Part shown: positions 38,215-58,160 of the stretch, piece by piece
Position numbering within the stretch: the first letter of the stretch is position 1
Layout of the letters: each line of letters starts with the position of its first letter
Source: Blastocatellia bacterium
GTDB taxonomy: Bacteria > Acidobacteriota > Blastocatellia > Pyrinomonadales > Pyrinomonadaceae
Assembly: GCA_003168335.1 (NCBI GenBank)
Contig: PMSM01000010.1
Span: 657,588 to 721,587, forward strand
DNA length: 64,000 nucleotides
Direction of reading: 5' to 3'
Made by a program: the position numbers and the translations under genes
Notes under the pieces: model-generated
What the model was told of the DNA's origin: nothing
Databases searched by the model: none
The model's input: the letters and a program-made list of their open reading frames with translations, nothing else

Positions 38215-38261
38215 TTCACGCTGAAGGCGTGAAATGTAATAGCCAGGGGCAACGCCCCTGG
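38215..38261 (+). repeat. Two-hairpin repeat element, copy 1
   Basis: Hairpin A TTCACGC-TGAAG-GCGTGAA (38215-38233), linker ATGTAATAG (38234-38242), hairpin B CCAGGGGC-AAC-GCCCCTGG (38243-38261). A further small hairpin GCGCTGAAAGCGC follows near 38273. Confidence 0.7.
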
Positions 38262-38377
38262 AGAATATCCAAAGCGCTGAAAGCGCGAAATAGTTTTGGG
38301 CCCTGAATTGATCAAGAGGATGTAATTGATTGCGCTATACCGCGCCTTCAGCGCTCGTTGACTTATTGCGTGACGAT

Positions 38378-38421
38378 CCTGGGGCGTTGCCCCAGGCTAT
38401 TGCATGGCGCGCCTTTGGCGC
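38378..38421 (-). repeat. Two-hairpin repeat element, copy 2
   Basis: On the minus strand: hairpin A GCGCC-AAA-GGCGC (38409-38421), then GCC and linker ATGCAATAG (38397-38405), then hairpin B CCTGGGGC-AAC-GCCCCAGG (38378-38396). Opposite to copy 1, 117 bases away. Confidence 0.7.
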
Positions 38422-38445
38422 TTTAGAAGGCCCGATCTCAAAATG

Positions 38446-38910
38446 CTAGCCCGATGGGCATTCTGTGACCACTCTTAGTTCCGCGGTCTCCAGCGAGGTA
38501 ACGACCTCGATTTTCGCCTCGTCGCCGGAAATAACAATGCGGCGTTCCGAGTTCGCGGCAAAAACCGCGACTGCGGTTATCAAACATTCAAGCGGCGAGC
38601 CGGTGAAGCGTTTCAAGCCGCTGGCGTCGCGTCCTTCGCTCAGTAGCAACTGCGCGTCGAAAGCCACGTCAGTTTTGTCCGCAATGCTTAGTTCATCGGC
38701 ATCGAGTTCTGAAATCGCCACGCCCTGAGGCAATAGGTTCATCTCTCCGTCCAGATAAATCGTCCAGAGAAATCCGATATCAAGGAGCAGGTGCGCCGCT
38801 TCGCCGGCGATCAGCCACCCCATTACGGTCGCGCCCAACACGTGCGCGATGACGTGGTCCTGATGCTTCGTCGTTTCGCTTTCAAGCCAGTCCGGAGAGA
38901 TATGATTCAT
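38446..38910 (-). CDS. Unrecognised 154-aa protein
   Basis: The ATG at 38910 (MNHISPDWLESETTKHQDHVIAHVLGATVMGWL) is chosen because the 52 codons upstream overlap an inverted repeat and look non-coding. The protein is acidic with an N-terminal helical part (HVLGATVMGWLIAGEAAHLLLDIGFLWTIYL) and a beta-rich C-terminal half. No family or catalytic motif recognised. It lies beyond the probable terminator of the MFS gene, so it is probably separately expressed. Confidence 0.55.
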   Translation of the reverse strand: MNHISPDWLESETTKHQDHVIAHVLGATVMGWLIAGEAAHLLLDIGFLWTIYLDGEMNLLPQGVAISELDADELSIADKTDVAFDAQLLLSEGRDASGLKRFTGSPLECLITAVAVFAANSERRIVISGDEAKIEVVTSLETAELRVVTECPSG

Positions 38911-38958
38911 CTTGTTTTGGTACGTGGTCCCTGGTTGAGTTAACTGTCCTTGCCGGAT

Positions 38959-39032
38959 AAAACGATCCACGAAAACACTAAGTGGGACATTGTTTTGTTC
39001 GTGAGACTTCGTGTGATTTCGTGGATCGTTTT
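38959..39032 (-). terminator. Long inverted repeat, probable terminator of the MFS gene
   Basis: AAAACGATCCACGAAA and TTTCGTGGATCGTTTT form a 16-base perfect stem around a loop of about 42 bases. On the minus strand the descending arm ends CGTTTTATCC, giving a short T-tract 70 bases past the MFS stop. The loop itself contains CACGAA repeats. Confidence 0.5.
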
Positions 39033-39101
39033 TCTCCAGCCGAAATACGGCACGAAACCAGGGCAACGCAGTCGTAGGTTCCCTGCTTGCTGTCGTCTGC
39101 C

Positions 39102-40364
39102 TTACTTCACTTCATATCTGCGCAGATTTTTCGCCGCCATGAGCGCGAGTGTAGCCGCAATCAGACATCCCAGGCCGCCGGTTACCACGGACAAGGGCGC
39201 GCCGATTAACGCGGCCACGGTGCCCGCTTCAACTTCGCCCAACTGCGGACCGCCCATGAAAAAGATCATATTGATGGAAGTCATGCGGCCGCGCAAATTG
39301 TCCGGCGTGGTCAGTTGGCGGATAGTTTGACGCAGGATCGTGCTGACGGTGTCGGCGGCTCCCATCAACGCCAGCATCAACAGCGAGAACCAAAACACTC
39401 GCGACAGACCGAACACGATCGTGGCCGCGCCAAACACAGCGACCGATAGGATCACGATCAGGCCCTGTCTTTTCAAGGTTCCCAGACGCGCCATCACGAG
39501 TCCTGAGATTACAGCTCCTCCAGCCGGAGCCGCGGCTAGAAATCCGTAGCCTTGCGCCCCAACTCGCAAAATGTCTGTGGCAAAGATCGGGAGCAACTGA
39601 TTTGCCGAAGCGAAAAACGTGGCGACAAAATCCAGCGTCATCGTCTGGACGATGATCGGAGTGCGCCAAACGAAACGCAGGCCTTCAACCAGCGCTTGGA
39701 GACTGATTCGCGGCGCCTCGCTTTCGCTCTTCTCCGGCCGTCCGCTCGTGCGCATTAGCGCGAGACCGAGAATCACGGCCACGAAAGAGGCCGCGTTGAT
39801 CGCGTAGACTAGTCCGGGTCCATGACTCGCTAAGAGAAACCCCGCCAAAGGCGGCCCGCTGATTAATCCTATTTGAAACATCAGCATGCTCAGACTGACG
39901 GCGTTGGGGAAATCTTTGAGCGGCACCAGAGTCGGCATTAGCGCTTGTCGCGCCGGCGTATCAAACGCCCACGCCGCCGAAGCAATTGAGGTCAAGAGAA
40001 AAATTGGCCACACGCGCTTGAGTCCCCCGGAAGTTACCAGCGCCAGAGTCGCACTGCACGCCAGCATGATCGTCTGGGTCGCCATCATCAGGCGCCGCCG
40101 ATCCATTACGTCGGCCACGACTCCGCCCATCAGGGAACATAAGATGATCGGCACCGCGCGGCACGCCCCAACCAGTCCCAGCGCCAGCGCCGAATGCGTA
40201 AGCAGGTAAATGTGCCAGTTGATCGCCGCCAACTGCATCTGAGATCCGGTGACCGAAACGATCTGGCCCATCCACAGCAGCCGAAAATCGCGATGACGAA
40301 GTGACGAGAAGGCTGTCTGGCGCTCAGACGCGCTGGTGAGTTTTGCAGGATCCGTCGTAGGCAT
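39102..40364 (-). CDS. MFS transporter, enterobactin-exporter-like
   Basis: 420 residues with about eleven or twelve membrane segments. The N-terminus LRHRDFRLLWMGQIVSVTGSQMQLAAINWHIYLLTHSALALGLVGACRAVPI and motif A-like GGVVADVMDRRRLMMATQ are those of MFS_3/EntS-type exporters. The middle FDTPARQALMPTLVPLKDFPNAVSL is also characteristic. It probably pumps out small molecules; no biosynthetic genes lie beside it, so the substrate is unknown. Confidence 0.85.
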   Translation of the reverse strand: MPTTDPAKLTSASERQTAFSSLRHRDFRLLWMGQIVSVTGSQMQLAAINWHIYLLTHSALALGLVGACRAVPIILCSLMGGVVADVMDRRRLMMATQTIMLACSATLALVTSGGLKRVWPIFLLTSIASAAWAFDTPARQALMPTLVPLKDFPNAVSLSMLMFQIGLISGPPLAGFLLASHGPGLVYAINAASFVAVILGLALMRTSGRPEKSESEAPRISLQALVEGLRFVWRTPIIVQTMTLDFVATFFASANQLLPIFATDILRVGAQGYGFLAAAPAGGAVISGLVMARLGTLKRQGLIVILSVAVFGAATIVFGLSRVFWFSLLMLALMGAADTVSTILRQTIRQLTTPDNLRGRMTSINMIFFMGGPQLGEVEAGTVAALIGAPLSVVTGGLGCLIAATLALMAAKNLRRYEVK

Positions 40365-40486
40365 CAGTTGATGCTTATTTATAACCCATGATCAGGGCCA
40401 ATCGAAACAGCCCTCAGCTCTTTGGTTGGAGAAACGTATAGAACTTTGCGTACGTGAGTTAAACTGAATCCTGAGCGAGCTTACGA

Positions 40487-40858
40487 ATGAAGCGTGCTGG
40501 GTGGCAAAAATGGATTGTGCTGGTCTCGTTCGCGCTGGTCGTGGTGGCCACCGGCGTTTTCGCTGTGCGCACAGTTCGCCGCGCGATGTATTGGCGTCTG
40601 CACCACGACGAGGTCATTCGTCCCTGGATGAGCATTCCCTACGTCGCGCACTCATATGGGGTTCCGCCGCACATCTTCTATCAAGCCCTGGGAATTCCCC
40701 CGCAACTACATGATCGGCGGCCGCTAAAACAAATTGCGCGCGAGCACAATCGTTCGGTAGATGAAGTGATCAGAGTGTTGCATGAGGCGATCGCTCGCGA
40801 GCGTGCCACCCATCCAACGGGGGCACCTCCGCCTCCCGATCAAGGGAGATCGCCGTGA
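40487..40858 (+). CDS. Small membrane-anchored protein before DedA
   Basis: 123 residues: one N-terminal membrane segment (WIVLVSFALVVVATGVFAV) and a soluble domain EVIRPWMSIPYVAHSYGVPPHIFYQALGIPPQ...RRPLKQIAREHNRSVDEVIRVLHEAIAR. The latter part looks like a small helical, HTH-like module. The stop overlaps the DedA start (GTGA), so the two are translationally coupled and probably act together at the membrane. I do not know the family. Confidence 0.7.
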   Translation: MKRAGWQKWIVLVSFALVVVATGVFAVRTVRRAMYWRLHHDEVIRPWMSIPYVAHSYGVPPHIFYQALGIPPQLHDRRPLKQIAREHNRSVDEVIRVLHEAIARERATHPTGAPPPPDQGRSP

Positions 40859-41493
40859 GCATCACCGACCAATTGCTGGGGGCACTCTCGCAGTACGGCC
40901 TGCCAGTGCTTTTTGGTGTGATCGTGATCGCGGCCGCCGGTATTCCCTTGCCGATTTCCATGATGCTCGTAGCCGCCGGTTCTTTTGTAGAGTTGGGCGA
41001 AATGAAGCTCTGGCAAGTGATCGTAGTCGCCAGTGCCGGTGCGGTGTTGGGCGATCAGATTGGATACGCCCTGGGCCGTTGGGGTGGTCATCATGTCGTT
41101 TCCCGAATTCAGCGCAGAGAGAATGGCGCGGCCAAAATTGCGCAAGCCGAAGCGTTTACCAAACGATGGGGCGCAGCGGGAGTATTCTTCAGCCGCTGGT
41201 TGATCACACCGCTGGGACCCTGGTTGAACCTGACCAGCGGCATGGCGGGATATCCGTGGATGCGGTTCTTCGTTTGGGACGTGCTGGGCGAAGTGCTCTG
41301 GGTAGTCCTCTACGTAATGCTCGGAAAACTTTTCAGCGACCGTGTTCAGGCGCTGGTTGAAATCCTCGGCAATCTTGCCTGGGTGGTAGTGGGCTTGATT
41401 GTTGCCGCGATTCTGGGCTGGAAGGTACTCAAGTACATGCGGCCCAGCGCCACAATGAAGGAAGAGAAGGACACCTCCCGCGCGTTAACGTAA
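40855..41493 (+). CDS. DedA-family membrane protein
   Basis: 212 residues from a GTG that overlaps the previous stop by four bases. The family core is clear: ITDQLLGALSQYGLPVLFGVIVIAAAGIPLPISMMLVAAGSF, GDQIGYALGRWGG, FTKRWGAAGVFFSRWLITPLGPWLNLTSGMAGYPWMRFFVWDVLGEVLW, with the conserved F-x-R-[WF] and G-x3-G elements. DedA/SNARE-associated proteins are implicated in undecaprenyl or other lipid flipping and membrane homeostasis. Confidence 0.9.
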   Translation: MSITDQLLGALSQYGLPVLFGVIVIAAAGIPLPISMMLVAAGSFVELGEMKLWQVIVVASAGAVLGDQIGYALGRWGGHHVVSRIQRRENGAAKIAQAEAFTKRWGAAGVFFSRWLITPLGPWLNLTSGMAGYPWMRFFVWDVLGEVLWVVLYVMLGKLFSDRVQALVEILGNLAWVVVGLIVAAILGWKVLKYMRPSATMKEEKDTSRALT

Positions 41494-41513
41494 AAGTCGC
41501 ACTCCTGGAGCGC

Positions 41514-43109
41514 TCAACCGGTATTGCGGGCCGGGACAGAACCGTCTCTGCGTTGAATGCCGGCGGGGGCCGGTATGGCCGGGTCTGATCTTTTGTTCTT
41601 TTTCCCGGCACGCCACTTCCCGATTCCTCCACTCACCAGTTTGTAAATTGGCCAGCGGTTATCAACAACCAGTTTCACCCAGGCGCGCTTGGTCATTTGA
41701 GGAAAATAAATGCCCCGAAAGAACAGCCGCATGGCCAGATGCATGATCTGTACTTTGAGCGGCTTGTCACTGAGCGAGTCAATGGCGCTCGCGTTCCGCT
41801 CGGGGCCATACGATGCAGTCCAGGCCTGATCGAGCTCAGCATGCGTTTGCGCAATCGTTATCTTTAAAGGTGTGTTCGCCATCTGGTAGGGCGCGAACTC
41901 CAGCCAGTGCTTTGGCCGCGTCAGTCGGCCCGCCTTCAGGAGGCGATCGTACAGCGGAGTTGCCGGAAAGGGGGTCAGCTGGCCAAAGACCGGCAACCCC
42001 GGCGGCCAGCTTTCAATCTGCTCGAGCGTGCGATCAGCCACGCCGGGCGTATCGTTGTCCAAACCGAAGATGAAAGATGTAATTGCATAAATGTCGCGTC
42101 GCGCCAGACGATCGAGCACGGCGGCGTACTCGACGGGCTTGTTGAAGCTCTTGTTTACATCGGCGAGGTTGACCGGATCTATTGACTCCATGCCGATGAA
42201 AACCCACTTGCCATGTGACGCTGCAATCAGATCGACGAGTTCTTCATCACGCAGCAGATTGGCGCTGATTTGAGCTATCCAGGGAAGCTGCGCCCCGGCG
42301 GCGATGATATCTCTCAAGAGCGACTTGGTGCGCTTGATATTGATCGCAAAGTTGTCGTCGATGAAAAAGACGATGACCTGGCGGCGATTCTTGCGAGCGT
42401 GTTTCTTAAGCCTCAGGAGTTCATTGACAACGCTCTCGTTCGTGCGGAATCTAATCGAGTCCCCGAAGAATCCGGTGACGGTGCAGAACTCACAACCATA
42501 GGGACAACCACGACCTGACTCGATCGGTATCAAGTGAACTGCCTGCCAGCCGTTAGCGTGGCGTTCCAAGAGGGGTCGCACGACTTTCGGAACCATGTTG
42601 AATTGTTCCAGGTCGAGTTTCTCCCATGGGATGGATGGGTAAGGCTGGAGACTTGGCTTGCGCTCTTTGCCCGTCTCGTCAACGGGTGTGTAAATCTCTT
42701 TGAGTTGGCCGCGCGCTGCATCGACGACTATCTGCGGCCAGGTCTCGTCGGCTTCGCCGAGTGCGACGGCATCCGCATGGCGCGGACCGCCATCTCGACC
42801 CAAAGCCTCGTCAGGTACCTCCGTAACGTGAGGTCCTCCCATTACAACCGGCACGCCCGCAGCACGAATGGCATCAGCCATCAGATAGGCCCGGGCCACC
42901 ATTCTGGTCATCGCACCGATACCAACGAGTCCGATCTGCTGGTCACGTATGAAACTAACCAACTGTTTCTCGTTCATTGGCCGGGCATTGCCGTCAATCA
43001 GGATTACCTCATGTCCGGGCGGAGTGAGTGATTGCAGCAGAAACATCCAGAGATGCGGCATGAAGTTGCGCGTCACGCCGTTATCCGGATTGTAAAGCAG
43101 AATTTTCAT
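41514..43109 (-). CDS. B12-binding radical SAM protein
   Basis: 531 residues. The N-terminal B12-binding domain covers about 1-150 (MKILLYNPDNGVTRNF, GIGAMTRMVARAYLMADAIRAAGVPVVMGGPHVTEVPDEAL, DAVALGEADETW). The SAM domain has the [4Fe-4S] motif CPYGCEFC near residue 210 in ESGRGCPYGCEFCTVTGFFGD, then VIVFFIDDNFAIN and FIGMESIDPVNLADVNKSFN. Such proteins methylate or rearrange unactivated carbons in lipid and natural-product pathways. A second one (50661-52145) is 7.5 kb away. The C-terminus after about 440 is poorly conserved, ending in a basic tail. Confidence 0.9.
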   Translation of the reverse strand: MKILLYNPDNGVTRNFMPHLWMFLLQSLTPPGHEVILIDGNARPMNEKQLVSFIRDQQIGLVGIGAMTRMVARAYLMADAIRAAGVPVVMGGPHVTEVPDEALGRDGGPRHADAVALGEADETWPQIVVDAARGQLKEIYTPVDETGKERKPSLQPYPSIPWEKLDLEQFNMVPKVVRPLLERHANGWQAVHLIPIESGRGCPYGCEFCTVTGFFGDSIRFRTNESVVNELLRLKKHARKNRRQVIVFFIDDNFAINIKRTKSLLRDIIAAGAQLPWIAQISANLLRDEELVDLIAASHGKWVFIGMESIDPVNLADVNKSFNKPVEYAAVLDRLARRDIYAITSFIFGLDNDTPGVADRTLEQIESWPPGLPVFGQLTPFPATPLYDRLLKAGRLTRPKHWLEFAPYQMANTPLKITIAQTHAELDQAWTASYGPERNASAIDSLSDKPLKVQIMHLAMRLFFRGIYFPQMTKRAWVKLVVDNRWPIYKLVSGGIGKWRAGKKNKRSDPAIPAPAGIQRRDGSVPARNTG

Positions 43110-43238
43110 GGTCTGTTTTGCTCCTCGCCGCGGAGCTTCAGTAGAGAAGCGCGCCGCCGGACGGTGCTTTCGCTAAACCATCAAAAAAACAACTTAAGAC
43201 AGGTCGAAATCTTCTTCTGTGCGGCAACACACATAGTA

Positions 43239-43244
43239 TATAAT
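43239..43244 (+). promoter_or_regulatory. -10 box of the first Crp/Fnr gene
   Basis: A perfect TATAAT in AGTATATAATTTGC, 115 bases before the ATG; the -35 is weak. A very similar TTATATAATTTTGC occurs at 44121-44134 before the desaturase remnant, suggesting related control. Confidence 0.45.
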
Positions 43245-43358
43245 TTGCTTGGCGGAGCGAAGGTCCCGGTTGGCTGGTTCGAGTAACTCACGGGCCTTCG
43301 TCGCCAGGAAACTCGCTGAGAATACTCTAAAGTTTAGAGAAAGGACAATAGCCAGATT

Positions 43359-44066
43359 ATGTCGCAAGAACCGTTTCAGATCACCGGCAACCACCTGCTC
43401 GCGACTCTACCAAGAGACTCATATGAACGGCTGCGTCCCCACCTCGAACCGATCACTTTTTCTTTGGGTGAAGTAGTTTACGAATCCGGCGGGCACATGC
43501 AGTATGTCTATTTCCCGACGACTTCTCATATCTCTTTGTTGTACACGATGATCGACGGATCGACGGCAGAGATGGGCCTGGTGGGCAATGAGGGAGTGGT
43601 CGGCATCGCGCTGTTTATGGGCGGCGAGACCACTCCCAACCGGGCGATGGTGCAAGGCGGAGGGCTCGCCTACCGGATGAAGGCGAAATCAATGCTCGAT
43701 GAGTTCAACCGAGGTGGCGAGTTCCAGCACTTGCTGCTGCGATATACCCAAGCCTTAATCACCCAGATTTCGCAAACGGCTGTTTGCAATCGTCTCCACT
43801 CAGTGGAGCAGCGACTCTGCCGCTGGCTGTTAATGACTCACGACCGCACAGATTCGGATCGGTTGCAAATGACTCATGAATTCATCTCTCACATGTTAGG
43901 AGTACGACGAGAGGGCGTCACTGTGGCGGCGCATCGGCTGCAAGAGGCGGGCATGATTAGATACGTGCGCGGCCATATCAATATTCTCGACCGCCAGCTG
44001 TTGTTAGCCCATGTCTGCGAATGTTATCAAGTGGTCAAAGCCGAGCATGAACGATTGCTCGGTTGA
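43359..44066 (+). CDS. Crp/Fnr-family transcription regulator, paralogue 1
   Basis: 235 residues. N-terminal cyclic-nucleotide-binding-like beta barrel (LEPITFSLGEVVYESGGHMQYVYFPTTSHISLLYTMIDGSTAEMGLVGNEGVVGIALFMGG) and a C-terminal Crp-type helix-turn-helix (RLQMTHEFISHMLGVRREGVTVAAHRLQEAGMIRYVRGHINILDRQLL). The family member lacks the FNR cysteine cluster and the usual cAMP-binding R-S pair, as in many environmental relatives with unknown ligand. It closely resembles the second copy at 44713. Confidence 0.9.
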   Translation: MSQEPFQITGNHLLATLPRDSYERLRPHLEPITFSLGEVVYESGGHMQYVYFPTTSHISLLYTMIDGSTAEMGLVGNEGVVGIALFMGGETTPNRAMVQGGGLAYRMKAKSMLDEFNRGGEFQHLLLRYTQALITQISQTAVCNRLHSVEQRLCRWLLMTHDRTDSDRLQMTHEFISHMLGVRREGVTVAAHRLQEAGMIRYVRGHINILDRQLLLAHVCECYQVVKAEHERLLG

Positions 44067-44345
44067 AGGTTGTCGAGCGATTAATGTGTGATGACGCACG
44101 GACAGCCGGACCTTTGCGTGTTATATAATTTTGCGAGTTGATTTGAATCACGTCATCTAATCGACATTGGGACCGAGTCTGACCAACAAACTTCTCCTTA
44201 TGCCGTTCGTCGGTTCTAGATTGCGGTTTTCTTAAGGAGACCACCCGATGTCACCACTTTCCAAGCAAACACCACATCTCTAGCGATCTCCATACCCAGG
44301 AATCTGACTGTTTTTCCAGACCTTAAAACGTCGACGGCCAAGGAG

Positions 44346-44582: not shown

Positions 44583-44712
44583 GCTCGACACATAGCGAAG
44601 CCCTGACCTTCGATCCATCGGCGCCCACGGCCGATACCCGCCCTATGTGTGTTTGCGCACCGATGGCTGACATCCCGGCGTGTTATAGGAATGCACGAGA
44701 GAAGAGACATCG

Positions 44713-45432: not shown

Positions 45433-45453
45433 CCTGGGGAAGACGATTCCGCG

Positions 45454-50435: not shown

Positions 50436-50660
50436 GCTGGTTCACCGTTACGATTGTATTATCCGGCGATTTTTTGCCGTGAGCAAAGCTAAACTCACTA
50501 CGCTTAGTGGCAGACGGTTGTTCTGAGAAAATGTGGGGCAACGCCCGGCGATAGCCAGCCGGGCATAGCATTGGTCATCGGAGGTGGCTGCGAAGGAATA
50601 TTGGGAGAAGCACAATTCCCGGCGCGGCGATTACCGGGAGTCGCCGCGGCTGGTTAAGTC

Positions 50661-52145
50661 TTAGGCTTCGTTGTAAGCGTCGCTCAACTTGCGAAAGTGA
50701 TAGCCCATCGCGGCCAAACGCAGCGACTCGGCAAAACGGTCACGGTGTTTTGCCAGGGCGTGAACGAAAAACCGCCAGAACTCTTTGCGCTCACGATCCA
50801 GCACACCCAGCTTAAGCGCAATTCGCGCAAATGCCGTGATACTTTGAATGAGGTCGTAGTTCTTTGCGTCGCCAGCACTGTGAGGCGTTCGTTTCAGAGA
50901 ATCGCGTACTCGCTGATAGTACTCACGCGGACTATAGATCGTCTGCATGATGGATTGGTAGCCTGCAATCAGCCGGGAAGGATCCATCTTGGTCACAAAG
51001 TTCAGCGAGCAGTTGGTATTGTTTCCAGAAGCTTCACCCAACAATCTTCCTTCGCGCTCGAGGCGCTTCCAAAGCTGTGTATCCGGAAGCGCATTAAGCA
51101 ATCCAACCATCGCGAGTGGTATCGCGCTCTGGCGAATGAAATCAATTTGGAGTTGAAAGATATCCTCAGGATCGTTATCAAAGCCGACGATGAATCCGGC
51201 CATCACTTCCATCCCGTAGCTCTGTATCTTCTTTACCGAGTCGAGCAGGTTGCCGCGGTTCTGCGTCTTCTGTGCTTCCTTCAGACTCGCTTCGACCGGA
51301 GTCTCTATTCCGAGGAAGACCCGTCCAAAGCCTGCGTCTCTCATGCTATCGAGCAGTTGGTCATCGTCAGCGAGATTGATGCTGGCTTCAGTCAGCAGCG
51401 TAAACGGATAATCGTGCTGCTTCTGCCAATCTGCCAGCTCCGGCATGAGTTGCCGCACGTTCTTCTTGTTACCGATGAAATTATCGTCGACGATGAACAC
51501 GGTGCCCCGCCAGCCCAACTCGTATAAGGCATCCATTTCGGCGAGGATCTGCTGATTGCTCTTGGTTCGCGGGATACGTCCGTAAATTTCAATGATGTCG
51601 CAGAACTCGCAGCTGAAAGGACACCCGCGCGAGTACTGGACCGACATCGCACTGTAACGTTTGAGTTCCGCCAGGTGAAAGTGCGGCAGAGGCGTGGTCG
51701 AAAGCTGCGGTCGTTCGGCAGCTTTATACGACCGCTTGGCCTCGCCTCGGGCCAGGTCTTCGACAAACTGTGGGATGGTGGCCTCAGCTTCGCCGAGGAA
51801 GATATGATCAACCTCCGGCAACTCTTCAATCGTGGTGGTAACGTAAGGGCCACCAAGTACCACGCGCTTCCCTTTCGCCTTGCAGCGCTGCACGACTTGC
51901 TTCAGAGAATCCTTCTGGGCCAGCATCGCCGTAGCCATCACCATATCAGCCCACTCGATGTCGGACGATCGCAGCCGGCGCACATTCAAATCGACCATGC
52001 GTCTTTCCCAGGAGTCGGGCAACAGGGCCGAGACAGTCATTAGCCCGAGCGGGGGAAATGCGCAGCGCTTGCCTTCGAAGGGCAGTGCATGACGGAAACT
52101 CCAATACGTATCGGGGAATTCTGGATTCACTAACAAAACTTTCAT
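50661..52145 (-). CDS. B12-binding radical SAM protein (DUF4070-like)
   Basis: 494 residues. B12-binding domain: [74 protein letters not shown]. The SAM core has CPFSCEFC in [43 protein letters not shown] and [21 protein letters not shown]. The C-terminal part ([36 protein letters not shown]) fits DUF4070. This subfamily acts in lipid or hopanoid-like chemistry in some species; the substrate here is unknown. Confidence 0.9.
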
Positions 52146-52300
52146 TACTTCTCCTTTACCGAAACCGCATCAACGACCAAGAAGCCGAGAGATTAGCAAA
52201 CCCGAAAAGGCTCTTGCCACTCGACATGTTGCTGTTCTGACTCAGGCGACACGATTCTTTGGCCACGATCAGCACAAGCCACGATCAGCACAAAGATAGT

Positions 52301-52519
52301 CTACGCCTTCTTCCTTGCCTTCGCTCGGCCCAGCGTCAACACGTCACCCGGCTGACACCCAAGCGCTTTACAAATCCTTTCCAGGGTGTTGAAAGTAATT
52401 CCCTGGGCCTTGTCCTTCTTCAGTCGCCAGAGTGTCGTATGACTTACGCCGGTTTCTTTGGCCAACCAATAGAAGGTCCGCTGATGCTCCTTCAGCAGCT
52501 CGTCGATTCTGATTCTCAT
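52301..52519 (-). CDS. Cro/C1-type (XRE) regulator, paralogue 1
   Basis: 72 residues from the ATG giving MRIRIDELLKEHQRTFYWLAKETGVSHTTLWRLKKDKAQGITFNTLERICKALGCQPGDVLTL, a whole single HTH domain of the YozG/HipB-like Cro type. It is about 60% identical by eye to the protein at 54275, including FYWLAK.TG.SHTTLWRLKK. The transcript is divergent from the STAS gene. A palindrome CTATA-GAA-TATAG lies 64 bases upstream and may be its operator. Confidence 0.85.
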   Translation of the reverse strand: MRIRIDELLKEHQRTFYWLAKETGVSHTTLWRLKKDKAQGITFNTLERICKALGCQPGDVLTLGRAKARKKA

Positions 52520-52528
52520 CATTAGCAA

Positions 52529-52820
52529 TGCCCGGCCTCTCTGCAGCGTACGCGCTATTTATCATAGCTGTTCAGTGTTTGTCTATAGAATATAGTGCAT
52601 TCTTGACATATATGCTGGACTACTATAGCCTTGCTTTCAAATTGAGTCCAGCTAACTCTCTTCTCAGATCTTCTGGAATCATCCAGACCAACTGAAGTCA
52701 ACAGCTTACTGAATTCAGGAACCGTGGTGTCCGCAGAGAGTCGGTCACCGCGATGGGATTGTTCTTGGAAGGAGCCCCTTTTGTGGAGTGCCTTTCCTGG
52801 CGATAGAGACTTGGGAAAGC
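52529..52820. other. Intergenic control region between XRE and STAS genes
   Basis: It is AT-rich near 52560-52640 and holds the perfect palindrome CTATAGAATATAG (52583-52595) and TTGACA at 52613-52618. No RNA gene was seen. Confidence 0.4.
52583..52595. promoter_or_regulatory. Palindromic operator candidate
   Basis: CTATA-GAA-TATAG, a 5-3-5 inverted repeat in an AT-rich patch between the divergent XRE and STAS genes. It overlaps a TATATT/TATAG -10-like sequence on the minus strand, so binding would repress the XRE gene. Confidence 0.4.
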
Positions 52821-53237
52821 ATGAGCGACATCGGTATTAAAGAGCGACAAGTCGGACAGATCACGATCCTGGATACAGACGGCCAGGTAAGAATCGCCTT
52901 GAGATTCGGTGGCAGCAGCGTCCCACTGGCGAAAGCCGTCGACTCTTTGCTGGACAAAGGGAAAACTCAGATTCTTTTGAATCTCGAGCGCATCGCTTCG
53001 ATTAGCGCCAGAGACATCGGTGAGATTGTCTCGACTTACGTGGTTGTGAATAAGTTCGGCGGGCAGTTCAAACTTTTCAATCTAAGACCGTTGGTCCGCG
53101 AACTGATGATGACCACAAAGCTTCTGACCGTTTTCGACGTATACGAGACTGAATCGCAGGCCGTCGAGAGCTTCCGGAACCACGACCTGGCGTCGGGATC
53201 TCTGTCCGCGGTTCCCGGCCTGCGCGCTGGCACCTGA
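52821..53237 (+). CDS. STAS-domain protein (anti-sigma-factor-antagonist-like)
   Basis: 138 residues from ATG at 52821 (MSDIGIKERQVGQITILDTDG) with GGGAAAG before it. The STAS fold is visible: beta strands around ITILDTDGQVRIALRFGGSSVPLAKAVDSLLDKGKTQILLNLERIASISARDIGEIVSTYVVVNKFGGQFKLFNL. The phosphorylated serine of SpoIIAA-type proteins lies in D-S-S-G; here it reads SISARDIG, so the acceptor motif is diverged. It may act in a partner-switching relay; no anti-sigma kinase is adjacent. Confidence 0.8.
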   Translation: MSDIGIKERQVGQITILDTDGQVRIALRFGGSSVPLAKAVDSLLDKGKTQILLNLERIASISARDIGEIVSTYVVVNKFGGQFKLFNLRPLVRELMMTTKLLTVFDVYETESQAVESFRNHDLASGSLSAVPGLRAGT

Positions 53238-53304
53238 TGCGACTAAATCATGGACGATGCGAACGGCGAGACTACTGAGAAACGTGCGAGGAGACGAAAG
53301 CATT

Positions 53305-53460
53305 TTGTGGACAATTCTGTTATTACTGTTGTTGTTGGGGGGGATTGGTTCTCTCAGTGGCTACGCGGGTATTTTGACTGACCTGTTTCTGGTCGGGGCG
53401 ATCGCGGTATTTCTTATTAATCTCTGCTCGCCGCGTCTGGGCCACGCCGTCCTGCGATAA
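53305..53460 (+). CDS. Small DUF5670-like membrane protein
   Basis: I favour TTG at 53305, giving (M)WTILLLLLLLGGIGSLSGYAGILTDLFLVGAIAVFLINLCSPRLG, about 51 residues, since DUF5670/Lmo0937-type proteins are this length and begin MLWTI; AGGAG lies ten bases before. A longer frame from ATG at 53257 would add 16 basic residues. Two short membrane helices. Relatives are stress-inducible peptides of unknown role. Confidence 0.65.
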   Translation: MWTILLLLLLLGGIGSLSGYAGILTDLFLVGAIAVFLINLCSPRLGHAVLR

Positions 53461-53508
53461 AAGGACGATAGGGCTCATCCTAAGCATCACTCGGAAACGA
53501 ATTCTGTA

Positions 53509-53814
53509 ATGAGCACCTTATATGCAATGCAACGAGCCAACGGCGACTGGTTTGCGCTCGCGCAACGCGAGGGTTTTCGCGTGCCGGTCTTTTCCAGCAA
53601 TCGAGAAGCGATGCAGGCGCGGGCCTTCAATGTAGAAATGCTGGTGTTCAAACCGGTCCTCGTCGACGAGCGCGCACTTGAGGATCTGGCGCCGACAGAT
53701 GACGAACGACCGGCGCATTTTTGGTTGGTAAAGGACGAATGCGTTAACATGAAGCGCGGCGTTGCTTTGCAGCATTCAGAGCTTGCGGGGCTAGTCCGCA
53801 GCGAGTCGGTGTAG
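53509..53814 (+). CDS. Small unrecognised protein
   Basis: 101 residues, MSTLYAMQRANGDWFALAQREGFRVPVFSSNREAMQARAFNVEMLVFKPVLVDERALEDLAPTDDERPAHFWLVKDECVNMKRG. Alpha/beta pattern with several aromatic residues; no signal peptide. It is followed after eight bases by the Cys-rich gene and probably co-transcribed with it. I do not know the family. Confidence 0.65.
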   Translation: MSTLYAMQRANGDWFALAQREGFRVPVFSSNREAMQARAFNVEMLVFKPVLVDERALEDLAPTDDERPAHFWLVKDECVNMKRGVALQHSELAGLVRSESV

Positions 53815-53822
53815 AAACTCAG

Positions 53823-54116
53823 GTGTCGATGATTGTCTGCGAATTCTGTTTACACTACCGGCAAGATGGCAAATGCCTGCTCGGCCTCAACATTCCGAAA
53901 GGAATGAGCTGCCGCGAGTTTGGCCCGGGCATAGAAAAATTCTGTTCCAACCCAAGTGATTTCGTCAGCCCCAACCAAATCATTCAGATGGCCACGTTCT
54001 TTGGATTTAAGAAAGCTGAGCTGAAAAAGATCAAGCTGATGGCCGAAACCGCCGAAAGCTCCCGCGTAGCAGAAAAGAGAAACGCCGCGGCCTTCAACGC
54101 GGCATCCCTTCCTTAG
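53823..54116 (+). CDS. Small Cys-rich protein
   Basis: 97 residues beginning MSMIVCEFCLHYRQDGKCLLGLNIPKGMSCREFGPGIEKFC. Five cysteines in the first 41 residues (Cx2C-x8-C-x11-C-x10-C) suggest a zinc or iron-sulphur site. A helical C-terminal half follows (QIIQMATFFGFKKAELKKIKLMAE). It is eight bases after the previous small gene and in a single unit with it. Unknown function. Confidence 0.65.
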   Translation: MSMIVCEFCLHYRQDGKCLLGLNIPKGMSCREFGPGIEKFCSNPSDFVSPNQIIQMATFFGFKKAELKKIKLMAETAESSRVAEKRNAAAFNAASLP

Positions 54117-54274
54117 AGCGGATCATCGCTGCCCGCTGAATTCCTTCGAGACAGATTCAAGTTATTACGATCCTACGCTAGACATGAGTATATTTCGCGT
54201 GTAGTATATATATCTCGTGGATGCTATTTGCCGCATGTGATAAATAACAGTATCCCAGGAGGTCGAGCCTTATT

Positions 54275-54517
54275 ATTGAGTTTCGCGTAGATGAAATACT
54301 GATCGAGCAGGGACGCTCCTTCTATTGGCTGGCGAAACAGACCGGTATCAGCCATACGACGCTTTGGCGTTTGAAGAAGGGCAAGGCCTTCGGAATGAAT
54401 CTCGACACCCTGGAAAAGATGTGCCGTGCGCTTAAGTGTCATCCCGGCGACATCCTCAAGCTGGGAAACAATAAGAAAAACGGCAACCACCGCAAAACCC
54501 AGAGCAAGCCGGAATAA
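54275..54517 (+). CDS. Cro/C1-type (XRE) regulator, paralogue 2, with ATT start
   Basis: About 80 residues: (M)EFRVDEILIEQGRSFYWLAKQTGISHTTLWRLKKGKAFGMNLDTLEKMCRALKCHPGDILKLG plus a basic tail. It aligns with paralogue 1 from the first residue, whose MRIRIDELL matches EFRVDEIL. The open frame upstream starts after a TAA at 54245 and contains no ATG, GTG or TTG; AGGAGG at 54257-54262 points to ATT at 54272 or 54275 as start. ATT starts are very rare, infC being the classic case. The next gene's ATG overlaps the stop codon (TAATG). Confidence 0.6.
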   Translation: MEFRVDEILIEQGRSFYWLAKQTGISHTTLWRLKKGKAFGMNLDTLEKMCRALKCHPGDILKLGNNKKNGNHRKTQSKPE

Positions 54518-54894
54518 TGAATATTAAAGAAAAGCCCTTTACTTTTAGATTCGTCGAGGCCGGACCAAATGTTGTCCTGGAACTCACGAATGCGACCGAT
54601 CGCACGCTCAAGTGCGTCGAGGTCCTGACTGTCTTTCTGAAGGACGAAGTAACTCCCGGCGGCGGTCCCTCGCAAGCTCATATTCAATTTGACGCAATAG
54701 AACGCATCCTCCCTACCGAGAAGTCCGTCATGTCTCACCGCACATGGATTAACGGCAAGCCGGCCGCTGGTGAGCGGGACCTTTTGGGACGGCTGCGAGT
54801 GATCGCGGGCGAAGCCAACCCCTATGTCCTGGATCTTTCCTGGCAGGACGTGGACGGGAAAACACGTTTTCAGCGAATCCCGGTTGGGCATTGA
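54517..54894 (+). CDS. Unrecognised partner of the XRE regulator
   Basis: 125 residues (MNIKEKPFTFRFVEAGPNVVLELTNATDRTLKCVEVLTVFLKDEVTPGGGPSQAHIQFDAIERILPTEKSVMSHRTWINGKPAAGERDLLGRLRV). Mostly beta, like a small immunoglobulin-type domain; no signal peptide. Its ATG overlaps the stop of the XRE gene by one base, so translation is coupled. Such linked regulator-effector pairs can be toxin-antitoxin-like or ligand-binding partners. I do not assign one. Confidence 0.65.
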   Translation: MNIKEKPFTFRFVEAGPNVVLELTNATDRTLKCVEVLTVFLKDEVTPGGGPSQAHIQFDAIERILPTEKSVMSHRTWINGKPAAGERDLLGRLRVIAGEANPYVLDLSWQDVDGKTRFQRIPVGH

Positions 54895-54945
54895 TAGCGC
54901 ATCGAAAAGAGTTCTAAACCACGTTCGCGTTCGGCCTCATCATTT

Positions 54946-55173
54946 CTGTTCAAGAGATCATTTTCCCTGCAACTGTCGGATGCTTATTGCGCCGGCAACC
55001 TTCCCGAGCAACTGACGGATCCTGATATCGCTCTTTTGTCGGCCCAAATCGACAAACAGAGGAATGGCATCATCGTTGCCCTGCGATCACGCGGAGTTAT
55101 AACTAAATTTACTGTGTGGCTGCGCTGGTCGAATCGCATTAGCCGCGAGTTCAAGGTCGCAGTCGCGAATTGA
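54946..55173 (+). CDS. Possible small ORF without a standard start codon
   Basis: The frame from 54898 to the TGA at 55171 has protein-like composition (LQLSDAYCAGNLPEQLTDPDIALLSAQIDK...ITKFTVWLRWSNRISREFKVAVAN) but no ATG, GTG or TTG in its upstream part. CTG at 54946 or ATC at 54901 are possible. It ends nine bases before the following ATG, with GAGGAG in between, as in an operon. It could also be a decayed gene. Confidence 0.3.
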   Translation: MFKRSFSLQLSDAYCAGNLPEQLTDPDIALLSAQIDKQRNGIIVALRSRGVITKFTVWLRWSNRISREFKVAVAN

Positions 55174-55182
55174 GGAGAAATT

Positions 55183-55572
55183 ATGAGAACACTATCGTGG
55201 TTAATATCAGCCCTGCTCTTGCTCGCGCCTGCTGCGCAAACTTTTGGTGCCGGCCAAAAAGCAGACAAACAAACGCCAATACAAAAGGTCAAGATTCAGG
55301 TTGCCAAGGTGGGTGTTGGAGAAAAAGCCAGGGCAACCATCACAACCAAGGACGGAGCGAAAATAAAGGGTTATGTCTCCCAGGCCGGGGACGACGATTT
55401 CGTGATGCGCGATCGCAAGACAAGCTCTCCCACAACCATCCGCTATGCCGACGTAGCGAAGGTTGAGCGCAACCAGGGACATTCAGTGGCCAGGATTGTC
55501 TTGATCGCGGTGGGCGCAGGGACGGCAATCGTTCTCGCCTCGATATACCTTGCGATCAAGCGCAATGGCTGA
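55183..55572 (+). CDS. Secreted small-barrel protein with C-terminal membrane anchor
   Basis: 129 residues. Signal peptide (MRTLSWLISALLLLAPAAQTFGA), then a beta-rich domain IQVAKVGVGEKARATITTKDGAKIKGYVSQAGDDDFVMRDRKTSSPTTIRYADVAKVE of Sm/LSm-like or small-barrel type, and a final membrane helix (ARIVLIAVGAGTAIVLASIYLAI). GAGGAG lies before the ATG. Similar proteins are common in Acidobacteriota; the function is unknown. Confidence 0.75.
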   Translation: MRTLSWLISALLLLAPAAQTFGAGQKADKQTPIQKVKIQVAKVGVGEKARATITTKDGAKIKGYVSQAGDDDFVMRDRKTSSPTTIRYADVAKVERNQGHSVARIVLIAVGAGTAIVLASIYLAIKRNG

Positions 55573-55697
55573 TGAGGGGGAAGACGAGGAACGCAGACAT
55601 TCGATCCGCATTTAGCCCGGGAGCGAATGATGGGCAGGCTCGCCGCCGCTAACTCAGCAGGACAATTAATTCGCGCGAACCGCCCATCACCTGAATC

Positions 55698-55985
55698 TTA
55701 ATAGCGCCGGCGATGCTGGTGGCGCTTACGAATCTTGTACGTATAGAGCGCGCCCGTTCCCGCGCCGGCTCCTGCGCCTACGAGCGCGCCTTTCTTTCCG
55801 GCTCCGAGGCCGCCGACGCCTGCGCCTGCGACCGTTGTTCCGGCTACCGTTAGTTTGTCACGGTGCTTTTGCCAAAAAGTTCTGCTATGGCGACGACGAT
55901 GACGCCTGGTCTGCGCCGACCCGATCGGGGCCAGCGTGAACATCAACATCAGAGTTATCAAAAGGCTTGCTAAAACTCTTCTCAT
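55698..55985 (-). CDS. Secreted glycine-zipper protein
   Basis: 95 residues from ATG at 55985 (MRRVLASLLITLMLMFTLAPIGSAQ), preceded by GGAGG. After the signal peptide comes a basic stretch (TRRHRRRHSRTFWQKHRDKL) and a glycine zipper (TTVAGAGVGGLGAGKKGALVGAGAGAGTGALYTYKIRKRHQHRR). Glycine zippers often form oligomeric membrane structures. The highly basic ends could bind nucleic acid or lipids. No partner is evident nearby. Confidence 0.75.
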   Translation of the reverse strand: MRRVLASLLITLMLMFTLAPIGSAQTRRHRRRHSRTFWQKHRDKLTVAGTTVAGAGVGGLGAGKKGALVGAGAGAGTGALYTYKIRKRHQHRRRY

Positions 55986-56342
55986 CCATTCCTCCAATTC
56001 AAAATCATGGCGTGATCCACGCTCTTGCAGTGTTGCACTGGTATTCTTCTTAAGAGCACATCTCAAACAATGCATAGTGGGCTAGAACAGACGGAGGGTC
56101 TGTACGCTAGGCCACATACTTAAGAGCATTAGCCGGATATCGAAGCGGAAGGATGTCGTGATCGGTACAGAGCCGCTCGCGGTAGCGCGCGGGTTCCTGG
56201 AGTGCGGTGGCAAGCGTAGCGCGACATCGCTTTGGATTCCTCGATCAAGGTCTCTCAAGATTCGTCCAAAGCGCCGTCGCCGCTTCGCTCTGCCCGCGCA
56301 CTCCAAATGAGGAAGCGCGCGTTCTGCAGTAGCGACCGGGTC

Positions 56343-56403
56343 TTCACGCTGAAAGCGTGAAATGAGATAGCCTGAGGCAGAGCGCGTAGCGCGCCGCCCC
56401 AGG
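56343..56403 (+). repeat. Two-hairpin repeat element, copy 3 (with insertion)
   Basis: Hairpin A TTCACGC-TGAAA-GCGTGAA (56343-56361), linker ATGAGATAG, hairpin B CCTGAGGC ... GCCCCAGG. The loop of B carries an extra hairpin GCGCG-TA-GCGCGC, and one stem pair is mismatched. Confidence 0.65.
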
Positions 56404-56529
56404 ATCGCGTTTAAGAAAGATTTGTGAGCCCCGAAGGGGCGACAGATTTGGAGTGCGGCGACTTGTCGCCGCCCTCTAGAACTTCAGCCGTCCGTTTCAC
56501 GGACTGACTCTTCATTAACGTCTTCTGAT

Positions 56530-56576
56530 CCCAGCAGTGAACTGCTGGGCTATTACCAATCGTCCGCTTCGCGGAC
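56530..56576 (-). repeat. Two-hairpin repeat element, copy 4
   Basis: On the minus strand: hairpin A GTCCGC-GAA-GCGGAC (56562-56576), linker ATTGGTAATAG, hairpin B CCCAGCAG-TTCA-CTGCTGGG (56530-56549). Stems are unrelated in sequence to copies 1-3. Confidence 0.7.
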
Positions 56577-56596
56577 TCACCCGCCCCCGTGAAGGT

Positions 56597-57148
56597 CTAC
56601 GCCTTCTTCACAAACTTCAGCGCCACTCCATTCATGCAGTAGCGCAGCCCCGTCGGTCTTGGTCCATCATCGAAAACGTGGCCGCTGTGAGCATCGCACC
56701 TCGCGCACAGCACTTCGGTTCGGGTCATCCCCAAACTCCTATCAACCTCTTCCCGCACGTTTTCCTTTTTGATGGGCGCCCAGAAACTCGGCCAGCCGGT
56801 GCCCGAATCAAACTTTGTAGTGGAGCTAAAGAGCGGCAGCTCACAAGCGGCACATTCAAACGTGCCGGCCTCATGAACGTCATTCAGCGGACTCGAGTAC
56901 GGCGCTTCAGTTCCCTTCTGCCGCATGACGCTGTACTGATCGGGCGTGAGCAGGCCCTTCCACTCTGCATCTGTCTTTATCACTTTTTTGATTCCTTTGG
57001 ATTTTAAGCCATCGCCATGCGCGTCTTTCGAACCATCTTTTGAAACATTGGGATCCTGCAAGAGAGACGCAACGGCGACCGGCAATCGCGAGAGCGCCAA
57101 AAACGTGCCCAGCGCAATAGAAGATGAAAGAAAGTAACGTCTGTTCAT
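56597..57148 (-). CDS. msrB: Exported peptide-methionine (R)-S-oxide reductase MsrB
   Basis: 183 residues. The N-terminus [27 protein letters not shown] is a signal with an RR, so Tat or Sec export. The MsrB fold follows: [68 protein letters not shown], zinc Cys pairs CAAC and CARC, and the catalytic Cys in [12 protein letters not shown]. It should repair oxidised methionine in exported proteins. Confidence 0.92.
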
Positions 57149-57243
57149 AAGTAGCCTTTATGATATCGATGATCGCTTCGTCAACCTAATTACGTACGGG
57201 ATTAATGAATTGGATTTAAAGGTTCGATCATGCGCGGGGCAGG

Positions 57244-57265
57244 AGCCCGACCGTGAGGGAGGGCG
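57244..57265 (+). repeat. Family III repeat, copy 1
   Basis: A 22-base word beginning AGCCCGACCGTGAGGG and ending GAGGGCG, identical to 58062-58083 and related in inverse to 61142-61162. Confidence 0.7.
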
Positions 57266-57275
57266 TCAATTCAAA

Positions 57276-57319
57276 GCGCCAACGGCGCGCAATGTAATAG
57301 CCTGGGCCAACGGCCCAGG
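57276..57319 (+). repeat. Two-hairpin repeat element, copy 5
   Basis: Hairpin A GCGCC-AAC-GGCGC (57276-57288), linker ending AATGTAATAG, hairpin B CCTGGGCC-AAC-GGCCCAGG (57301-57319). Confidence 0.7.
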
Positions 57320-57381
57320 AAAAGATCACGCTTATTTTGATCCGAGCCGCAACGCGGCGATCATCTATTTACGATTCACGA

Positions 57382-57813
57382 TTAGCTATTCACGAGTTTG
57401 GCGTTCAGCTTGATCTCAGTCCCCGCCAGCGCCTGCGACACCGGGCAATTCTTCTTCGCGGTCTCGGCGTGTTCGAGAAACGTCGGCTCGTCGATGCCCG
57501 GCACTTCGCCTTCGGTGTTGAGTTCGATCATGGTGATCTTGAATCCTTCGCCAACCTTCTCAAGACTGACGCTCGCGTTGGTACTGATGCGCGTCGGCTT
57601 GAAACCAGCTTTCGTCAATCCGGCCGCCAGGGCCATCGAAAAGCATCCGGCGTGCGCCGCGCCGATCAACTCTTCCGGATTGGTGCCCGTGCCTTCTTCA
57701 AATCGTGAAGCGAAGGAGTACTGACCTTCAAATGCGCCGCTGCCTAATTTGACGGTGCCCTTGCCTTCTCTGAGCGTACCTTCCCAAACCGCGCTCGCTG
57801 TGCGTTTCGCCAT
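57382..57813 (-). CDS. osmC: OsmC-type peroxiredoxin-like protein
   Basis: 143 residues. AVWEGTLREGKGTVKLGSGAFEGQYSFASRFEEGTGTNPEELIGAAHAGCFSMALAAGLTKAGFKPTRISTNASVSLEKVGEGFKITMIELN and AETAKKNCPVSQALAGTEI: the two redox Cys are in AGCFSM and KNCPVS, and the N-terminal TG(T)NPEELI is typical of OsmC. It should reduce organic hydroperoxides in the cytoplasm. It lies 230 bases past MsrB on the same strand, and both fit an oxidative-stress role. Confidence 0.9.
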   Translation of the reverse strand: MAKRTASAVWEGTLREGKGTVKLGSGAFEGQYSFASRFEEGTGTNPEELIGAAHAGCFSMALAAGLTKAGFKPTRISTNASVSLEKVGEGFKITMIELNTEGEVPGIDEPTFLEHAETAKKNCPVSQALAGTEIKLNAKLVNS

Positions 57814-57896
57814 GCGTGTGATCTCCCTTGATGATTTAGTTGTTGATTTAGTTCTCGATGATTGTAACAGGTCAAAGCGCGGAGACTGTTGTCCGC

Positions 57897-57931
57897 AATG
57901 AGGTCAGTACCACCTGCGGTAGCGGGTGGGT
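57897..57931 (+). repeat. Family II repeat, copy 1
   Basis: AATGAGGTCAGTACC followed by a CACC/GGGTG stem with GCGGTAGC between. The lead word recurs twice, inverted, at 61124-61137 and 61199-61213. Confidence 0.65.
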
Positions 57932-58061
57932 GATCGAGTCGGGGCATAGCCCCGAGAAATAAATGAACCACTCTCGGAAAGGCGTAGCCTTTCCGCACAT
58001 CAGGCCGCACAGCCGCATCACGCGTCACGAAAGATTGATTCAAGTTAACAAACGGGGCGGT

Positions 58062-58083
58062 AGCCCGACCGTGAGGGAGGGCG
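58062..58083 (+). repeat. Family III repeat, copy 2
   Basis: 22 bases identical to 57244-57265; the bases before it are also similar (CGGGGC.GG.AGCCC). Confidence 0.7.
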
Positions 58084-58112
58084 CAGTCCGTAGCACCTGA
58101 GGTGAGTGTTCA

Positions 58113-58160
58113 GTCCGCGTCAGCGGACGAATGATAATAGCCCAGCCTTTCAAGGCTGGG
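58113..58160 (+). repeat. Two-hairpin repeat element, copy 6
   Basis: Hairpin A GTCCGC-GTCA-GCGGAC (58113-58128), linker GAATGATAATAG, hairpin B CCCAGCC-TTTCAA-GGCTGGG (58141-58160). Confidence 0.7.

Follow-up and report, generated by a model that had tools for sequence, protein, structure and literature searches.

What are the short two-hairpin sequences that recur between the genes of a 64,000-nucleotide stretch (the window) of a Blastocatellia bacterium, an acidobacteriote (GCA_003168335.1, contig PMSM01000010.1)? A preliminary description, made from the sequence of the window, had recognized six copies and considered them a selected nucleic acid structure, perhaps a non-autonomous mobile element or a signal for RNA processing or termination. 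The six copies are very likely end units of non-autonomous mobile DNA elements that resemble repetitive extragenic palindromes (REPs) and their inverted doublets (REPINs) and that are acted on by a transposase of TnpA subclass 1.2. They belong to the Rfam family RF01687 ("Acido-Lenti-1"; Rfam type "Gene; sRNA," i.e., small RNA), their stems covary, and the family is placed extragenically and arranged in inverted pairs. Units of this kind specifically bracket genes for the subclass 1.2 transposase in several phyla, and in one genus copies and gene are present or absent together. The elements are probably mobilized by this transposase.

Inspection of the sequence confirmed the six copies, with the stems and the linker first described. 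All six were recovered by the Rfam covariance model, four of them at or above the gathering score of 37 bits. The strand of the Rfam model is the reverse of that used in the preliminary description, and on it a unit reads hairpin B, then CTAT..., then hairpin A. The units and their parts are as follows.

38215 to 38261, minus strand: end unit 1, with hairpin A at 38215-38233 (TTCACGC/GCGTGAA), the ATAG foot of the linker at 38239-38242, and hairpin B at 38243-38261; RF01687 match at 38217-38261 (-), 35.3 bits, under the gathering score.
38262 to 38377, no strand: interior between units 1 and 2, 116 bp (sequence read by eye).
About 38274-38286 and about 38342-38354: inner A'-type hairpins of this pair, the second imperfect (sequence read by eye).
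38378 to 38422, plus strand: end unit 2, inverted partner of unit 1, with hairpin B at 38378-38396, a CTAT foot at 38397-38400, hairpin A at 38409-38421, and T at 38422; RF01687, 45.1 bits.
56343 to 56403, minus strand: end unit 3, with hairpin A at 56343-56361, ATAG at 56367-56370, and a long degenerate hairpin B at 56371-56403; RF01687 match at 56345-56377 (-), 25.0 bits, E = 0.16, under the gathering score and the weakest of the six.
56530 to 56577, plus strand: end unit 4, inverted partner of unit 3, with B of type CAGCAG/CTGCTG and A GTCCGC/GCGGAC; RF01687, 39.0 bits.
57275 to 57319, minus strand: end unit 5, solitary, with A GCGCC/GGCGC and B CCTGGGCC/GGCCCAGG; RF01687, 37.9 bits.
58112 to 58160, minus strand: end unit 6, solitary, with A GTCCGC/GCGGAC and B CCCAGCC/GGCTGGG; RF01687, 37.2 bits.

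The window thus holds two inverted pairs, 38217(-)/38378(+) and 56345(-)/56530(+), and two unpaired copies, 57275(-) and 58112(-). In the weakest copy (56345), the B hairpin has a mismatch and a long loop.

The family is not confined to the window, a possibility that the preliminary description had allowed for; copies occur throughout the genome and in several phyla. The source genome (5.16 Mb in 14 contigs) contained at least 136 RF01687 matches at an E value of ≤0.001, 101 of them over the cutoff, against none in any of 14 control genomes, which places the copies beyond chance. The figure of 136 is an undercount, because 150 of 1,618 first-look candidates were scored and the window copies at 56345, 56530, and 58112 are missing from the list. 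Placement was strongly extragenic: 12 of the 136 copies lay within mechanically called open reading frames (ORFs) of at least 200 amino acids, compared with 1,787 of 3,000 random places. As first claimed, all six window copies lie outside the probable flanking genes.

Read from hairpin A, a unit comprises hairpin A, a linker of 9 to 12 nucleotides (nt) ending in NTAG (ATAG in the window), and hairpin B. The linker was 12 nt long in 101 of the 136 copies. B stems with no fewer than 7 perfect pairs came in 23 distinct versions, each of which had a customary A stem and loop; CCACGCCC went mostly with GGCCC, CCCAGCGA mostly with GTCCGC, and CCTGGGCC with GCGCC. The foot of hairpin B ended in AG in every one of the 118 copies whose B stem was at least 7 long (ATAG, 81; AAAG, 15; GTAG, 8; others, 14), a count partly imposed by the model used for finding the copies. 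Of 118 copies whose A stem was at least 5 long, 98 had CT on the outer side of hairpin A, as did 32 of the 50 flank units from other genomes described below.

The arrangement of the units was highly regular. The 136 listed copies formed 92 clusters, and among 37 neighbor pairs less than 300 bp apart, 36 were minus-plus, with A outside and B inside, and 1 was minus-minus; plus-minus and plus-plus pairs were absent. The interiors of the 36 close inverted pairs measured 89 to 226 bp, and the elements about 180 to 320 bp overall. In this incomplete list, 72 of the 136 copies stood in inverted pairs and 64 had no listed close partner of the right sense. A further hairpin (A') lay inside B in 72 of the 118 copies whose A stem was clear. 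Its end was 21 to 26 nt before B in 67 of these 72 copies, a T followed it in 61, and it shared the A stem of its own copy in only 17. A control stretch (-110 to -76) held a hairpin in 46 of 118 copies, with an identical stem in 11; this control is weak, since the stretch runs into the other, mirror-image end of the element, and the narrow distance peak is the better argument. The preliminary description saw single units and had missed both the inverted pairing and the inner hairpin. Tandem arrays with periods of 67 to 74 bp, or multiples thereof, occurred in Desulfonema magnum (G077) and a Zixibacteria genome (G087); other periods were 86 to 90 bp (L219), 107 bp (L194), and mostly about 170 bp (G050 and G054, described below), all taken from hand-picked rows of the listed matches.

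The source genome contained 14 matches to Y1_Tnp (PF01797) at an E value of ≤0.001 (11 over the cutoff). Eight of the 14 genes encode the signature Y---Q--HH, as in TnpA-Y1 subclass 1.2 (Quentin et al. 2018, PMC6006769). Seven of these eight were bracketed on both sides by units, with B towards the gene; the eighth (L052) had an in-frame TGA and no units. None of the other six Y1_Tnp genes, three of which fell below the Pfam cutoff, had a flanking unit. The RF01687 model alone detected units at 4 of the 14 gene loci (L046, L047, L048, and, weakly, L050), and the divergent units at the remaining bracketed loci were detected by structure. On the left flank of L046, the top-scoring structure was another hairpin, and the unit there was assigned from the Rfam match and a comparison of the flanks. 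The two B hairpins flanking one gene resembled each other, while the A stems differed at L049 and L050. The feet varied by gene: ATAG at L046 and L050, AAAG at L047, TTAG at L048, GTAG at L049, CTAG at L051, and CCAG at L053.

In an alignment of seven of these proteins, which leaves out L052, Y115, Q119, H122, and H123 were invariant and the C terminus was fairly conserved. All seven matched the PF01797 Y1 HUH domain, as well as the IS200/IS605 model NF033573 at an E value of ≤0.001 (63.2 bits for the first member; cutoff, 55). One of the seven matched the model of REP-associated tyrosine transposases (RAYTs; NF047646), at 24.2 bits versus a cutoff of 80. Among relatives of known structure are the transposase of ISHp608 and the 2xm3 group; 2xm3 is the ISDra2 structure. 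The preliminary description had suggested a search for a RAYT-like transposase; Y1 HUH genes bracketed by units are present, and their products fall short of the RAYT model. These bracketed genes lend support to both the selected-structure and the mobile-element readings of the preliminary description.

The affinity to IS200/IS605 TnpA rather than to RAYTs raises the question of whether the copies are simply internally deleted derivatives of ordinary IS200-type insertion sequences (IS), comparable to miniature inverted-repeat transposable elements, and not a population of REP-like repeats served by a resident transposase. This alternative, which partly overlaps the reading given above, is also favored by the presence of up to 13 transposase genes in some related genomes. 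An ordinary multicopy IS is expected to leave near-identical gene copies, however, whereas the transposases of the source genome are diverse (28 to 43% identical to the first) and their end types differ. In addition, the copies (at least 136) far exceed the eight genes, and the ends are inverted. We regard derivation from ordinary IS copies as unlikely, though deserving of consideration.

The association of units and gene extended well beyond the source genome. We examined 80 named genome loci with transposase relatives, the best 80 of 583 listed, and assigned their phyla from the record titles. The Y---Q--HH signature was found in a + frame of 77 of the 80. At the gathering score, these loci contained 57 RF01687 hits, 51 of them no more than 400 bp from the gene (0.82 hits per kb within 400 bp of the gene, compared with 0.026). 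The predicted sense was seen in 41 of the 51 near-gene hits and in the nearest units of 29 of 36 flanks, with 24 of the 80 loci involved. A strict structural scan detected right-sense units in 50 of 160 flanks versus 6 of 1,114 control windows, and on both flanks at 18 of the 80 loci. A looser scan pointed the same way, with scores of ≥13 in 35.6% of the 160 flanks, in 13.1% on the wrong strand, and in 3.1% of 1,118 control windows. According to the strict scan, at least one flank unit was present at 11 of 13 loci of Verrucomicrobiota, 12 of 19 of Planctomycetota, 2 of 4 of Acidobacteriota, 2 of 3 of Desulfobacterota, and at the single loci from a deltaproteobacterium, Calditrichota, Nitrospirota, and Zixibacteria. 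Written on the opposite strand, the feet of the 50 flank units were CTAT (17), CTAA (14), CTAC (12), CTAG (4), CTTT (2), and CTGG (1), the CT being required by the scan. Whole-genome searches of 36 of these genomes, hand-chosen from the 80 loci in favor of loci with units and hence not random, revealed RF01687 matches in 31: all 28 non-Bacteroidota genomes (3 to 119 among the matches listed) and 3 of 8 Bacteroidota genomes.

At two Flavobacterium loci, another multicopy Rfam sRNA, Flavo-1 (RF01705), was located near the transposase (L224, 2609-2668; L250, 2678-2781). This proximity could be due to chance, as Flavo-1 occurred in 5 to 102 copies in 10 of 11 genomes searched.

Gene and copies also tended to occur together among relatives. 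In a set of 60 that includes the source genome (transposase threshold, E ≤ 1e-10; a count of 84 denotes at least 84), the transposase was found in 28 of 31 genomes with at least 10 RF01687 matches and in 15 of 29 with fewer (P = 0.0013, kinship ignored). Two of the exceptions held only damaged transposase genes, G009 having fragments at a contig end and G025 having copies with stops. Within one genus of two-contig 3.7-Mb genomes, G050 had 46 copies and one transposase, G054 had 50 and one, and G046 had neither. A 1,222-bp stretch with two copies in G050 corresponds to 67 bp in G046, and a 9.1-kb stretch with the transposase and arrays (L269, 8516-17642) corresponds to 367 bp (L281). G050 and G054 are mostly 90 to 98% identical over aligned unique stretches, and at one shared site (226/220 kb) they carry six and two copies, respectively. 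Three congeners offered four intergenic stretches homologous to that of the window's 38.2-kb pair (two in G001 and one each in G002 and G006). By BLAST and by eye, none of them showed such a pair; 25 bases of one stretch were masked, and L289 had an element-like match elsewhere.

The stems themselves bear on whether DNA or RNA is selected. We compared 24 B hairpins (22 distinct rows), chosen for having 7 or more perfect stem pairs, with 500 shuffles. The proportion of paired cells was 99.4% versus 68.4%, a figure inflated by the preselection of rows; 47 cells had changed on both sides versus 14.0; and the covariation score was 0.725 versus 0.139, with values of no more than 0.134 in slid structures. 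None of the 500 shuffles was as high in any of these three respects. Change on both sides was seen in six of the eight hairpin-B pairs (8 of 500 shuffles reached six), and no pair had one-sided changes only. The count of further pair types was ordinary, being matched in 114 of 500 shuffles. A MAFFT alignment (A2) had put B hairpins of differing loop length out of register. When no stem filter was applied, Watson-Crick pairs made up 1,059 of 1,080 cells in B and 659 of 675 in A (1,718 of 1,755 in total; 135 of 136 copies), in a best-pairing register chosen by script, which itself favors pairs. The covariation reported in the preliminary description, with pairing kept while sequence changes, is therefore real.

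Conservation of fold and linker would equally be expected if the copies were a genuine small non-coding RNA, as RF01687 is catalogued. The table in Weinberg et al. 2010 (PMC2864571), in the part available to us, lists the family as a probable RNA ("RNA? y") that is not cis-regulatory ("n"). A selected RNA is expected to tolerate G-U far better than A-C, which was not the case: the non-Watson-Crick cells comprised 7 G-U and 16 A-C among the 1,755 (two-sided P = 0.09, opposite to a wobble preference), and one-sided changes were absent from the pairs compared above. These pair types fit better with recognition of single-stranded DNA, or with repeated copying of a few master sequences, than with RNA. 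More than 100 copies in this genome, many of them in inverted pairs of one sense, and the fact that a single type of transposase is bracketed in several phyla also argue against an sRNA. On base pair types and context, we disfavor the sRNA explanation, which we consider highly improbable.

The extragenic placement would also suit terminators or mRNA-stabilizing hairpins kept for host function, and secondary roles of this sort have been reported for REPs in other bacteria in the sections of PMC6006769 consulted. At least 5 T within the 8 bases after hairpin A were found in just 6 of 118 copies, and the matching A run on the other strand was found in none. Termination, moreover, needs neither a conserved linker nor inverted pairing, and the 38.2-kb pair is missing from the four homologous stretches. 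We rejected terminators because T runs are rare, and upkeep for a host function of either kind is very doubtful, though the copies may have a secondary role in the host; with the intolerance of G-U in the stems, the RNA processing and termination readings of the preliminary description find no support. Least probable of all is that the transposase inserts into preexisting RNA or REP structures, the adjoining units being targets rather than its own ends, as the parts of PMC8450116 available report for ISPpu9 inside REPs: both flanks hold whole inverted units instead of halves of one, the two B hairpins of each gene are alike, and the sister genome without the gene has no copies.

Among known systems, IS200/IS605 elements (IS608 and ISDra2) share the transposase clade and the guide-plus-hairpin ends. 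The ends of IS608 have a same-strand arrangement; the units described here, in contrast, are inverted repeats, and the elements are non-autonomous and far outnumber the genes. The likeness to REPs and REPINs, also known as BIMEs (bacterial interspersed mosaic elements), lies in the extragenic location, the many copies, the inverted doublets, and a resident Y1 transposase flanked by the repeats. TnpA-REP systems, as covered by the portions of PMC6006769 and PMC8266576 consulted, comprise extragenic inverted palindromes with a foot tetranucleotide ending in G, mostly AG, cleavage at CT, and a bracketed Y1 HUH gene. In contrast to the REPs of Escherichia coli and Pseudomonas, units here have two, often three, hairpins and not a single one, the putative guide usually reads NTAG, its first base varying, and is not limited to GT[AG]G, and the transposase fails the RAYT model. 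According to the available sections of PMC8266576, the transposases of IS200/IS605 and REP systems bind single-stranded DNA hairpins and are guided in cutting by the tetranucleotide at the 5' foot. In the case of REP-Mb, the same source models guide bases A3 and G4 as selecting CT and reports that altered guide bases altered the cut site; such changes failed for two other REPtrons.

Subclass 1.2 transposases were described, in the parts of PMC6006769 seen, as generally lacking typical terminal IS200 structures and as occurring mostly in Cyanobacteria and Bacteroidetes. Here, by contrast, two-hairpin units bracket the gene in Acidobacteriota, Planctomycetota, Verrucomicrobiota, and other phyla, and at only 1 of 35 Bacteroidota loci. 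The TIRYTs (terminal inverted repeats with Y1 transposases) of Di Nocera et al. 2013 (PMC3733652, consulted in part) are similar in that Y1 transposases, some from Acidobacteria, are bracketed by inverted, partly double-palindromic repeats. Class 3 TnpA-Y1 feet, however, are given as CnGA in the available part of PMC6006769, against NTAG here. Since the repeat sequences of PMC3733652 appear only in figures of the part consulted, some TIRYTs may be the same elements under another name.

Both the RF01687 sequence family (since 2010) and REP/REPIN systems were known, and a link between them was not found in print, as far as the accessible texts go. No connection of Acido-Lenti-1 with a transposase appeared in the accessible parts of PMC2864571, PMC13298647, and PMC10059132 or in the wider open literature searched; the word Rfam is absent from the main text of PMC6006769 and from PMC3733652. 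Acido-Lenti-1 and our units are one sequence-structure family, catalogued as an sRNA, and the evidence presented here favors mobile DNA ends. A family still treated as RNA in 2026, when regulation of proteases was suggested for it (PMC13298647, in the part available), thus appears to be mobile DNA instead. The link would provide likely substrates for a transposase subclass described as generally without terminal structures. It also offers a natural series on which to test guide-transposase coevolution, with changing guides, matching hairpins, and genomes that have or lack the enzyme.

We infer the following mechanism. A complete element would consist of two inverted units, with A outside, B inside, and a short interior between them; copies without a partner would be solo ends. 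The units would fold as single-stranded DNA, exposed, for example, on the lagging strand, and the folded units would be bound, cut, and joined by the IS200-like Y1 HUH transposase of subclass 1.2. With the transposase gene lying between two units at a few loci, the enzyme would serve the dispersed copies in trans. Hairpin B would have its guide in the four bases at its 5' foot, the last two of which, AG, would direct cutting to the CT that borders hairpin A on the outside, making ATAG-B the start module and A-CT the end module. Because the ends are inverted, both strands would carry a start (guide plus hairpin B) and an end (hairpin A plus CT), and this mirroring would explain why two hairpins and A-out, B-in pairs are kept.

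More tentatively, subclass 1.2 TnpA and the Acido-Lenti-1 units may constitute a separate single-strand transposition system, a possibility to which we give less than even credence. With both modules mirrored at the other end, the element would be complete and movable on whichever strand was exposed, and the inner A'-B-A repeat would let monomers of about 67 to 72 bp be cut from CT to CT and amplified as arrays. Such a system, if real, would account for the distribution of an Rfam "RNA" family across at least seven phyla.

Several observations weigh against mobilization by the subclass 1.2 transposase. In the strict scan, a wrong-sense unit was found in 10 of the 160 flanks, and no unit was found at 34 of 35 Bacteroidota loci, 2 of 2 Ignavibacteria loci, and 12 of the 43 other loci. 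In the source genome, the further gene of subclass 1.2 type (L052) is interrupted by its TGA; the bracketed gene L048 is, in our own reading, out of frame over its first part, and on its left flank the nearest unit is wrong-sense, with the right-sense unit farther out. Six of the 60 relatives have a transposase and no RF01687 match, and G015 has 19 matches and no transposase found. The contrast of G050 and G054 with G046 represents a single event, and the uniform AG foot owes something to the search model. No empty site with a base-exact junction was recovered at the 38.2-kb site in the genus or among G050, G054, and G046, where relatives are too diverged (73 to 81% identical at the 38.2-kb site) or arrays too repetitive. 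Finally, no shared target sequence was seen by eye outside hairpin A in the copy list.

The neighbors of the window copies, named from reading their translations, are as follows.

36374 to 38143: permease-like gene.
38446 to 39066: ORF.
56597 to 57148: MsrB-like gene.
57382 to 57813: OsmC-like gene.
58245 to 59813: tetratricopeptide repeat (TPR)-like gene.

A mechanical ORF at 56537-57007, overlapping the copy at 56530, is antisense to the MsrB-like gene. Other repeats lie close by. An inverted repeat distinct from the units, about 110 bp long, at 56198-56309, with ends TTTGGAGTGCGG and CGCACTCCAAA, has many copies in the genus; similar sequence lies beside the Y1_Tnp matches L057 and L058, so it may represent a family of terminal repeats that goes with another Y1 transposase. 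Another dispersed repeat, with many matches in G000 and G001, occupies 38947-39060 at the end of ORF 38446-39066. At the homologous site in G002 (L287), a further inverted repeat (GGGGCAGTAGCCCGACCG...) resembles, by eye, the window sequence near 57240 and 58050.

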